NCBI GenBank assembly: GCA_027061725.1 | Contig: JAMOVG010000272.1 | Location: 1 to 32,110, forward strand | Length of the DNA: 32,110 nt | Origin: Desulfobacteraceae bacterium | Lineage (GTDB): Bacteria; Desulfobacterota; Desulfobacteria; Desulfobacterales; JALSRD01 | Direction: 5' to 3' | Part shown: positions 25,535 to 27,628 of the stretch, piece by piece | How the letters are laid out: the number at the start of each line of letters is the position of its first letter | How positions within the stretch are numbered: the first letter of the stretch is position 1 | The notes under the pieces: model-generated | Databases searched by the model: none | Seen by the model: the letters and a program-made list of their open reading frames with translations, nothing else | What the model was told of the DNA's origin: nothing | Position numbers and translations under genes: made by a program

Positions 25535-25753
25535 TCATTCCGCGTGGGGCCAGACCGTATGCCGCTTTTCTACGAAGTAACAGAAACGGTCCCATGCGAA
25601 TTCACGGCCGGAAATGGGACAGCGCAGGGTAACCTTGCGCTCCCCGACGGCCGCCACTTCCCAGTCGCCCCGGCGGGGACCGTCCTCGATGGTGATCTTC
25701 TGGCCGACGGTGAAGGGAAACATTCTGAAAAAGGCCACATCTTCTTCGGACAT
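25535..25753 (-). CDS. 72-residue conserved-looking protein, function unknown
   Basis: A compact, probably beta-rich cytoplasmic protein. FTVGQKITIEDGPRRGDWEV and ERKVTLRCPISGREFAWDRF look like a small SH3-like or PilZ-like barrel with alternating strands, rich in Phe and Trp. It has a clear ribosome site (CGGAGG, eight bases from the ATG) and its own intrinsic terminator, so it is most likely a monocistronic gene. A TTGACG box at 25853-25848 (minus strand) may be its -35, but the -10 is poor. It diverges from the small-RNA promoter about 140 bases away. I do not recognise the family. Confidence 0.72.
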   Translation of the reverse strand: MSEEDVAFFRMFPFTVGQKITIEDGPRRGDWEVAAVGERKVTLRCPISGREFAWDRFCYFVEKRHTVWPHAE

Positions 25754-25871
25754 GCTGAAAACCTCCGGGATGACGGACCGACGACGTCCGTAGTTTCGGG
25801 TTTCGCCAAAGGCGGTACACCCTCTAGGTAGTGCACCCGTCCGTGAACGTCAACCCCGTCGGAACCCTTTT

Positions 25872-25922
25872 GAATATTTTTTAAAAAAACCACTTGACAT
25901 GTCACTTTGTGACACTTATAGT
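25872..25922 (+). promoter_or_regulatory. Strong sigma-70 promoter with UP element and operator
   Basis: An AT tract (GAATATTTTTTAAAAAAACC, from 25872) resembling an alpha-CTD UP element precedes TTGACA (25894-25899), a 17-base spacer and TATAGT (25917-25922). The spacer contains the palindrome TGTCACTTTGTGACA (25900-25914), so a repressor bound there would block RNA polymerase. Predicted transcript start is near 25929. Confidence 0.75.
25900..25914. repeat. Palindromic operator inside the promoter spacer
   Basis: TGTCAC and GTGACA are perfect inverted arms around TTT. A second palindrome TGACATGTCA (25895-25904) overlaps the -35, giving three TGACA half-sites in 20 bases. It does not match the CRP/FNR, Rex or HcpR consensus sites I know. 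Confidence 0.6.
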
Positions 25923-25968
25923 GTAGGTCAGCAGTCAGAACTTTTTCATTCATTCTCTCCTTTCAACC

Positions 25969-26001
25969 CCGGGGTGGCGCTTCCCCCAGGCGCCACCCCG
26001 G
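25969..26001 (+). other. 12-bp perfect hairpin near the 5' part of the small RNA
   Basis: CCGGGGTGGCGC (25969-25980), loop TTCCCCCAG, GCGCCACCCCGG (25990-26001). No T run follows, so it is a structural element rather than a terminator. Its cytosine-rich loop could be a pairing site for target RNAs. Confidence 0.6.
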
Positions 26002-26175
26002 AACCCAACTGGTGAAACGGAGCCCTGTAAATGTGAACGTGCAACGAAACCGACAAACCGGCGGTAGCTCACCGCACAGATTTATATCATCGATCTTCTG
26101 ACGCAATGCGGTAACAACGAAAGAACCGACTTGTCTGCTATCAGACCAAAAACCAGCATTTCCTCCTGAACCAGC

Positions 26176-26214
26176 CCCCCCGGGCCGACGCTGTCGACCC
26201 GGGGGGTTCTGTTT
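26176..26214 (+). terminator. Intrinsic terminator of the small RNA
   Basis: CCCCCCGGG (26176-26184) pairs perfectly with CCCGGGGGG (26198-26206); an inner CGAC/GTCG stem closes a GCT loop with one mismatch. TTCTGTTT (26207-26214) follows. It also lies about 20 bases beyond the end of the minus-strand Roadblock gene, but lacks a T run in that direction. Confidence 0.75.
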
Positions 26215-26234: not shown

Positions 26235-26588
26235 TCAGCGGCCGCGCCTGAAAAAAAATCGCGCCTTGCGGCGCTGTTTGCCGCCGTTTCCCAGCGCCAC
26301 CGTCAAGGCATCGCAGTTAAGCCGCACCATGGCCGCCGGGGCACCGTGGTCCATGATCACCATCAAGTATCCCCATGGCCCCGGTCGCACATAGAGTCTG
26401 GCGTTTTCATAGAAGAGATCGGCCTCCGCGAATTCCGCCAATCCCGCCAGGTCAAGGTCGTTTTGCAGCGGGTCGATATCCGCAGCCGGTGCCCTGCCGG
26501 ACCGGAAAACCGTTTCGCCCGTCGGTGAAATCAGCAGCGCCCCGCGGACGCCCTTGATTTCCAGAATGTCGTTGAACGCTTTTTCCAT
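26235..26588 (-). CDS. Roadblock/LC7-like protein with basic, Phe-rich tail
   Basis: 117 residues. The body follows the Roadblock/LC7 pattern of small-GTPase regulators: helix MEKAFNDILEIKGVRG, strand GALLISPTGETVF, central helix DLAGLAEFAEADLF, strands RLYVRPGPWGYLMVIMD, and C-terminal helix AAMVRLNCDALTVAL. It ends with a strongly basic, aromatic tail (QRRKARFFFRRGR) that could bind membrane or nucleic acid. It is the last gene of the MglBA cluster, 38 bases after the REC-PATAN regulator. I start at ATG 26588 because the domain begins there; upstream in-frame codons are unlikely. It is much more divergent than the MglB-type protein at 30728, so the family call is moderate. Confidence 0.65.
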   Translation of the reverse strand: MEKAFNDILEIKGVRGALLISPTGETVFRSGRAPAADIDPLQNDLDLAGLAEFAEADLFYENARLYVRPGPWGYLMVIMDHGAPAAMVRLNCDALTVALGNGGKQRRKARFFFRRGR

Positions 26589-26626
26589 GTCTGTCGCCGC
26601 CGTGTGCGAATGTCCACCCACGGGCC

Positions 26627-27628
26627 TCAAGCGGTGATTCGCAACAGTTGCTGGAACAGCTGTTCGCGGGGGCACTTGTTCTCCAGAGAAACCACCGTGT
26701 GCGCCTCGTCGGGCAGCAGCACCACCGCCGATGCGGGCCCGCGGCGCGCCCAGGCAAACGCCAACCGTCCGGCACCGAGCGCCCGTCCCAGACCCGCCAA
26801 ATCGGCCATCAGGGGCTGCCAGCTTTCATCGCTGTAAACGTCTTCCACGCCTTTGAGGTGTCTCAACCGATCGAGAAAAACCTGCCGGGACGGTGCGGCC
26901 CGTTGCCCCCCGTCGCCCCCCGGCGCCGGCTGCGCAAGGGCCGGCGTGCCGGCCTCGTCCTTGCGCTGCATGGCTTCCAGCAGGATGGACTGCAGGTCTT
27001 TGCGGATGGGGCCTGTCTTCAAAGGGCAGCCCTCCTGGATGGAAACCGCCACCTGTTCCCAGGGAAAAAGCTCGTAGGCCGCCTCTTCGGCCCTCAGCTC
27101 TCCGCAGCGGGCGTCAAGCAGTCTCCCCTGGTCGAAAAAGAGCACGCCGCGGCGGCGCTCTTTCGCATCCACCAGGCGCAGCGTGCAGGTCTTCTGCTCC
27201 ATCTCTACGAGTTGCAGAAACATGCTGGTGGTGACCCCCCGCAGGGTTCCGCCGTCAGACTGCTTTTTCAGCAGCGTCAGGATGACTTTCGAGAGGTACT
27301 TGATCTTGAAAGGCTTGTCCAGGTATCCGGCGGCCCCGCGTTTCCTGGCAAGCACCTGGGTCTCCGGGGTGCTGAAGCCGGACATGATGATGACCGGTAT
27401 TTCCGGAAAGTTTTCCCGAACGTGGGCCAGCAGACCAAACCCGTCCATGCGCGGCATCTTCAGGTCCGTGACCACCAGGTCCACGGGGTGGCGGGACAGT
27501 TTGGCGGCGGCCGCCTCCCCGTCCCCGGCGATCAGCACTTTGAAAACGTCGCCGTATTTGGCCATGCCCTCCTTGAGCGAGAGCAGCGCCTCCTGGTTGT
27601 CATCAACGATCAATACGGATTTTACCAT
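26627..27628 (-). CDS. Response regulator with REC and PATAN (DUF4388) domains
   Basis: 333 residues. An N-terminal receiver domain has DD at 9-10, phospho-acceptor D55, SGFS near 83 and K105. It is followed by a DUF4388/PATAN-type domain (about 127-200; TLRGVTTSMFLQLVEMEQKT, RRGVLFFDQGRLLDARCGEL). A proline/glycine-rich linker (about 225-245) leads to a C-terminal alpha/beta region (250-333; LRHLKGVEDVYSDESW, ASAVVLLPDEAHTVVSLEN) that may be a degenerate Roadblock fold. There is no DNA-binding domain, so output is by protein contact. The kinase at 31158 is its likely donor. The start is ATG 27628, with AAGG five bases upstream; longer in-frame starts add arginine-rich sequence. Confidence 0.82.
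   Translation of the reverse strand: MVKSVLIVDDNQEALLSLKEGMAKYGDVFKVLIAGDGEAAAAKLSRHPVDLVVTDLKMPRMDGFGLLAHVRENFPEIPVIIMSGFSTPETQVLARKRGAAGYLDKPFKIKYLSKVILTLLKKQSDGGTLRGVTTSMFLQLVEMEQKTCTLRLVDAKERRRGVLFFDQGRLLDARCGELRAEEAAYELFPWEQVAVSIQEGCPLKTGPIRKDLQSILLEAMQRKDEAGTPALAQPAPGGDGGQRAAPSRQVFLDRLRHLKGVEDVYSDESWQPLMADLAGLGRALGAGRLAFAWARRGPASAVVLLPDEAHTVVSLENKCPREQLFQQLLRITA

Follow-up and report, generated by a model that had tools for sequence, protein, structure and literature searches.

The Qrr small RNAs of Vibrio (LuxO/sigma-54) are present in several copies per genome, one of them beside the gene of an NtrC-type activator, and act by base pairing near ribosome-binding sites; they are dependent on Hfq and contain several stem-loops. 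GlmY/GlmZ and CrcZ are sigma-54-driven small RNAs under an NtrC-type two-component regulator. In the RsaE class and in the CCUCC RNAs of rhizobia and Rhodobacter, a single-stranded C/U-rich stretch is complementary to the Shine-Dalgarno region. The RNA family described here, one copy of which lies in the window (the whole stretch of DNA that was analysed, 32,110 nucleotides), resembles Qrr in its multiple copies, in its adjacency to NtrC-type activators and in its predicted pairing near ribosome-binding sites, but differs in its dispensing with several stem-loops and in its unrelated sequence, and it is set apart from GlmY/GlmZ and CrcZ, which function by protein sequestration or as decoys and are long structured RNAs; the Rfam models of Qrr, GlmY and CrcZ have no match in the window or in six loci of the family. 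With RsaE and the CCUCC RNAs the family shares an anti-Shine-Dalgarno C/U-rich single-stranded segment, but its complementarity extends through the spacer to AUG-AAA-AA, a 3' hairpin is its sole structure, and most of its copies are sigma-54-driven.

In D. vulgaris Hildenborough, noncoding RNAs are located downstream of the NtrC-family regulators DVU0653 and DVU0679 (Dv_sRNA2) (PMC3333781, PMC4641369). By description, these are cases, again from a sulfate reducer, of a small RNA gene immediately behind a response regulator of the sigma-54 type and ascribed to sigma-54 control; about 12 copies of the present family are placed in this way, whereas the window copy is neither sigma-54-driven nor directly behind a regulator. 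In Myxococcus xanthus, the small RNA Pxr is encoded behind Nla19 in a regulator-sRNA cassette under sigma-54 (PMC5568312), and Pxr and its paralogues are about 108 nt long, with three stem-loops and a functional element in the loop of SL1 (PMC5568312, PMC5684412); the window RNA, with an unpaired leader and one hairpin in its core, is set apart from these by description. Regulator-sRNA cassettes under sigma-54 are an established kind, and a literature search found no description of the present family; therefore the family appears to be a new one within a known kind, the new elements being the sequence family, the predicted anti-start leader and the putatively promoter-swapped window copy. The 'Desulfotalea-1' candidate of 2010 has no Rfam number in the table of the paper that describes it (PMC2864571).

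The window copy and its congeneric orthologue

The window is contig C272 of the draft genome G000 (4.07 Mb, 410 contigs). A preliminary description of it had proposed an unannotated noncoding small RNA gene of about 286 bases with a very strong, regulated promoter. The A+T-rich tract, the promoter, the 12-bp hairpin and the downstream terminator on which that proposal was built are all found in the sequence, and the features of the locus are as follows.

25535–25753, minus strand: gene of a 72-aa protein of unknown family, the divergent upstream neighbour and the sole synteny shared with the congeneric relative
25868–25889, plus strand: A+T-rich tract, UP-element-like, 5' of the -35 box; identified from sequence and partly kept in the relative
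25894–25922, plus strand: sigma-70-type promoter TTGACA-17-TATAGT, 11 of 12 consensus positions
25900–25914, no strand: perfect 15-bp dyad TGTCACTTTGTGACA, operator-like, filling the promoter spacer; TATCACAAAGTGATA at the same place in the relative
25930–26001, plus strand: conserved core of the predicted small RNA, matched by covariance models R1 to R3
25940–25969, plus strand: unpaired leader, the reverse complement of a Shine-Dalgarno-to-AUG start (GAAAGGAGAGAATGAATGAAAAA), with a bias in its predicted targets; 25945–25969 identical in the relative
25969–26001, plus strand: 12-bp hairpin with a C-rich loop and without a U tract directly after it, identified by folding and by covariation in genus and family
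26176–26214, plus strand: second hairpin with a weak U tract, identified by sequence and folding, without counterpart in the relative

The -35 box (TTGACA, 25894–25899) and the -10 box (TATAGT, 25917–25922) are separated by 17 nt and form the top promoter-like site between 24000 and 28000 in a sigma-70-like scan; of "very strong," the part that stands is "strong-looking," strength having been inferred from the sequence only. That the promoter is regulated is backed by the spacer dyad, which the preliminary description leaves unspecified and which changes from TGTCACTTTGTGACA to TATCACAAAGTGATA in the congeneric relative with its symmetry kept through the substitutions. The exact pattern of the dyad has no second site in its own genome or in that of the relative, and with about one chance site per genome expected by the authors' estimate, this would indicate only that there is no exact-pattern regulon. 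A regulon of sites with one mismatch was rejected, such sites being no commoner in the own genome than those of a reversed-pattern control.

From the position of the -10 box, the 5' end of the RNA is inferred to be at about 25929–25931. The arms of the hairpin (25969–25980 and 25990–26001) pair perfectly over 12 bp, and folding of the entire stretch gives z = -4.2. The 3' terminus of the window copy is uncertain because its hairpin has no U tract of its own; the next candidate terminator, the likely end of the transcript in the window species, is the stem CCCCCCGGG/CCCGGGGGG plus TTCTGTTT at 26176–26214, which is absent from the list produced by the promoter/terminator scan and has a weak U tract. 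A minus-strand open reading frame (26235–26675) has within its 3' end a good intrinsic terminator (GCGCCGCAAGGCGC-GATTTTTTTT, 26252–26274, minus strand), and therefore either the real end of that frame or its termination is odd.

For the 72-aa neighbour, 97 of 291 genomes in the order have a match, and Pfam has none. Among 58 genomes, one other has the small RNA gene beside the same neighbour: G001 (GenBank JALSRD010000058.1), a Desulfobacterales MAG, the sole other member of the genus among them and, like G000, a draft. Among 30 loci of orthologues of the 72-aa gene that were examined, the small RNA was seen in this genus only, and a DNA similarity search with the full 366 nt yielded nothing beyond the congener apart from 22 A/T-rich bp in G051, which were attributed to chance. 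The two sequences have 80% identity over 105 nt, with a conserved span of about 25894–26001 in which both promoter hexamers are identical, as are 25 of 25 leader bases (TTCATTCATTCTCTCCTTTCAACCC), and the 12-bp stem is present in both with three two-sided pair changes. In G001, the hairpin is followed by AATCTTTTTTT. Of the RNA of about 286 bases, the part that is conserved is accordingly limited to 25894–26001, whereas 26003–26214 has no counterpart in the congener; because everything after 26003 is unalignable with the relative, 286 nt would be an upper limit for the window species and not the conserved unit, which is predicted to be about 70–75 nt plus the promoter. Just 3' of the relative's small RNA (L004:4525-4695) is an element of approximately 170 nt with a perfect 13-bp stem (CCTGAATCTTGCA/TGCAAGATTCAGG), a fold of -80 kcal/mol (z = -5.5) and no counterpart in Rfam; it may be mobile or a repeat.

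A covarying RNA family in the Desulfobacterales

Neither the window nor the six family loci have a match in Rfam 15 at the gathering threshold; matches below threshold, obtained with relaxed settings, were regarded as chance. A covariance model of the two congeneric sequences (R1, in which the window sequence was used minus one C and plus one A to match columns) gave 18 matches at E<=0.05 when 389 genomes of the order were searched, not counting the two genomes that supplied its sequences, a number about equal to the chance expectation. On reading, antisense gene starts were told apart from six loci with the same anatomy, four of which are closely preceded by a perfect or near-perfect sigma-54 promoter. 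With R2, a model built from six sequences, about 27 matches reached E<=3e-5 in the 389 genomes, several of which have two copies; the count of 58 of 389 genomes with R2 matches is no measure of the frequency of the family, as false positives are included and members are missed. In a search of the phylum (395 genomes) with R3, a model of 39 sequences, all convincing copies fell within the order of the window; with laxer filters, 36 of 37 selected genomes had copies, six of them being genomes without an R2 match, and a third copy turned up in the window's own genome. The E-values of the models are rough, and the genomes searched are partly incomplete. The scores of the window copy, 68 bits for R2 and 50.5 bits (E 4e-9) for R3, are not independent, since this copy is among the training sequences of both models. 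Excluded from the family as antisense gene starts or doubtful matches of R1 to R3 were L062, L071, L073, L074, L096, L101, L115-L118, L120-L124 and L126-L142.

Sixty-five copies were inspected, often two to four per genome, in ten family-level groups (f1, f10, f11, f24, f29, f30, f35, f36, f46, f53). Their common anatomy is a U/C-rich leader, the complement of a Shine-Dalgarno-to-AUG start, followed by a covarying hairpin, and the window copy has the same U-run, CAU and C/U-rich stretch in an unpaired leader, with a GC hairpin within about 20 nt. Two-sided changes occur at 11 of 11 pairs of the hairpin among 39 members, three of them within the genus, and two-sided-change cells in the helix number 117, compared to 38 after shuffling and no more than 25 in slid controls, in an alignment that was fitted to the structure of the model and so favours the covariation count. 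A U tract lies within 14 nt after the hairpin in 45 of the 65 copies and in the congeneric orthologue, but not in the window copy; it is missing also from several copies of f30, some of which have a second hairpin and U tract about 20–25 nt further on. The predicted link from genus to family stands on R2 and R3, the covariation and the promoters, and not on the weak R1 matches.

The covariance search in related genomes, a check that the preliminary description had suggested, thus strongly supports a noncoding small RNA gene with its own strong-looking promoter, and the 22-codon frame that the preliminary description had set against the stems has no counterpart in the congeneric genome, while the pairs of the hairpin covary. 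The locus is not the isolated oddity that it had seemed, but one copy of what is predicted to be a multi-copy regulatory RNA family of approximately 75 nt, not in Rfam and widespread in the order. In three genomes (L159, L171, L133/L144), tandem copies about 450–570 bp apart encode nearly identical RNAs with separate sigma-54 promoters. In seven genomes of f30 (L064, L068, L076, L082, L083, L085, L087), a convergent gene, the product of which is presumably ferritin/rubrerythrin-like, is located 3' of the small RNA.

Probable sigma-54 control and its proposed exchange in one copy

A sigma-54 -24/-12 site matching 13–15 of the 15 positions scored (TGGCA(C/T)-N5-TTGC(A/T)) is located upstream of 60 of the 65 inspected copies, near-fixed in position, which in most families would put the start of the RNA some 10 nt ahead of AACUUUUU. 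The five copies without it are the window copy (10/15, p 0.19), its orthologue (7/15), L088, L103 and L106. As L103 and L106 also lack the site, a sigma-54 promoter is typical of the family and does not define it. These two are second copies in genus g97 with TTGACT-type boxes, suggesting that sigma-54 control may have been lost more than once. Most sigma-54 copies have an enhancer-like palindrome or a clade variant of it, mostly 110–170 nt upstream of the -24 element: GTTCAAAATTTTGAAC in f36, f46, f11, f29 and f53, and TTTGCATATTGCAA-like repeats in f30.

Directly upstream of about 12 copies (in f36, f11, f24, f53 and others) is a pair of genes for a histidine kinase and an NtrC-type regulator. 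In f36, f11, f24 and f53, the regulator gene is 200–340 nt upstream on the same strand and is preceded by the kinase gene; the regulators have receiver, sigma-54 interaction (Sigma54_activat, E 3e-72) and Fis-type helix-turn-helix domains, as assigned by Pfam for two regulators and one kinase and by sequence similarity for the remaining ones. Regulator, sigma-54 promoter and small RNA are thus laid out as one cassette, and the neighbouring regulator presumably binds the upstream palindrome.

The window's own genome contains three copies of the family. Those at C40:9495-9554 (TTGGCAAGGTAATTGCA) and C322:1069-1124 (TGGCACGCAGGTTGCA) have sigma-54 promoters; the latter has an orthologue in G001 (L154), and both of this pair have TGTCAAATTTTTGACA at -80 to -90. 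The third, the window copy, is with its orthologue predicted to be rewired, the sigma-54 promoter having been exchanged for a sigma-70 promoter with an operator-like dyad. One substitution separates the TTGGCA of a sigma-54 site from TTGACA, and an exchange by that route is easy to imagine, but it is only speculation because the boxes are not in the same place.

Predicted pairing of the leader with translation starts

Reverse complements of the leaders are textbook translation starts (GAAAGGAGAGAATGAATGAAAAA for the window, AAGGAGGAAAAAAAAGATGAAAAAA for C40, AAAGGAGGAAAAAGATGAAGAA for f46), and so closely does the leader mirror a translation start that, among the false positives of the models, many are genuine RBS-AUG starts in reverse orientation. 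Targets were sought among 399 translation starts, obtained by simple gene calls from 0.71 of the 4.07 Mb of the own genome. The top 50 duplexes of the window leader included 16 signal-peptide-like genes, as defined by a crude hydrophobicity rule, compared to 48 of 399 overall (p 4e-5) and to 4.9 (sd 2.0) in the top 50 of shuffled leaders, none of 80 being as high; the leaders of C40 and C322 had the same bias (14 and 12, with none of 80 shuffles as high), which partly restates the complementarity of the leader to AUG-AAA-AA. In their best 5% of duplex energies, the window and C322 leaders lay below every shuffled leader, but the C40 leader did not. Among the best predicted targets are genes that presumably encode the periplasmic binding proteins of transporters. 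Near-exact leader complements included one plausible match to a ribosome-binding site, before an exported protein (L058); the best one that is shared lies antisense inside what is presumably the era gene and was rejected as a target for that reason. Hfq (PF17209) was not found in G000 (97.6% complete) by a search that detects it in E. coli and other controls.

The foremost alternative is that the RNA acts through its hairpin or a bound protein, as a sponge or by protein titration, and that the complementarity of the leader is incidental. Sigma-54-driven CrcZ, which works by titration, is a precedent, and the C5 loop is common to both congeners; however, across the family neither the sequence nor the length of the loop is conserved, whereas the leader keeps its U-run, CAU and C/U-rich anti-Shine-Dalgarno stretch, and the signal-peptide bias of its predicted targets exceeds that of shuffled leaders, so that this alternative appears improbable. 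Decay of the window copy to a nonfunctional paralogue with an accidental TTGACA/TATAGT match would account for the missing -24/-12 element and U tract in a genome with two intact sigma-54 copies elsewhere, but is considerably harder to accept: both congeners keep the hexamers, the symmetric dyad, the 25 leader bases and the covarying hairpin amid flanks that are unalignable, and purifying selection is therefore indicated. It is slightly less credible still that GGGTTGAAAGGAGAGAATGAATGAAAAA, the textbook ribosome-binding site and ATG of a 127-codon minus-strand frame (25570–25953), marks the start of a gene and that the plus-strand RNA is only apparent, as the same ATG in the relative opens a frame of 29 codons, unrelated in its residues, the antisense frame that begins at the conserved ATG varies across the family (mostly 3–40 codons), and the orientation of sigma-54 promoters and U tracts is that of the plus strand. 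A strong hairpin after a promoter could also belong to the attenuator or riboswitch of a downstream gene, a reading that hardly survives, given that the next gene is on the opposite strand in both genomes, leaving nothing downstream to control, and that no Rfam cis-regulatory family matches at the gathering score.

As a whole, the locus is probably best explained by a trans-acting small RNA at 25930–26001, most likely an antisense RNA that keeps ribosomes from binding its target mRNAs, with a preference for those that encode exported proteins. Family-wide, sigma-54 transcription of the small RNA would be switched on by a two-component signal; in this genus, the window copy would have lost its sigma-54 promoter and be driven from a sigma-70 promoter gated by a regulator, most simply a repressor, with putative binding at the spacer dyad. 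The unpaired leader is predicted to pair with an mRNA stretch that reaches from the Shine-Dalgarno sequence past the AUG and so prevent ribosome binding, with a preference for mRNAs whose start reads SD-AUG-AAA-AA(A/G), as is typical when an exported product has a Lys-rich signal peptide. The hairpin would lend the RNA stability and, in most members, the relative among them, would double as its terminator; for the window copy, read-through to the terminator at 26176–26214 is likely.

More tentatively, the Desulfobacterales may possess an order-wide, multi-copy small RNA regulon that functions without Hfq as a near-generic antisense to the starts of exported proteins (SD-AUG-Lys-Lys), the takeover of one copy by sigma-70 and an operator giving the same output a second, independent input. 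If this is true, small RNAs driven by two-component systems and sigma-54 would throttle the export load throughout the order. Small-RNA regulation is little known in the sulfate-reducing Desulfobacterota, where Hfq can be missing, and a family present in many genomes, with a defined promoter class, an enhancer palindrome and, for some groups, a candidate cognate two-component system, leads to directly testable predictions. The own genome, in which the same RNA is encoded by two sigma-54 copies and by a third of the sigma-70/operator type, would be a natural rewiring experiment.
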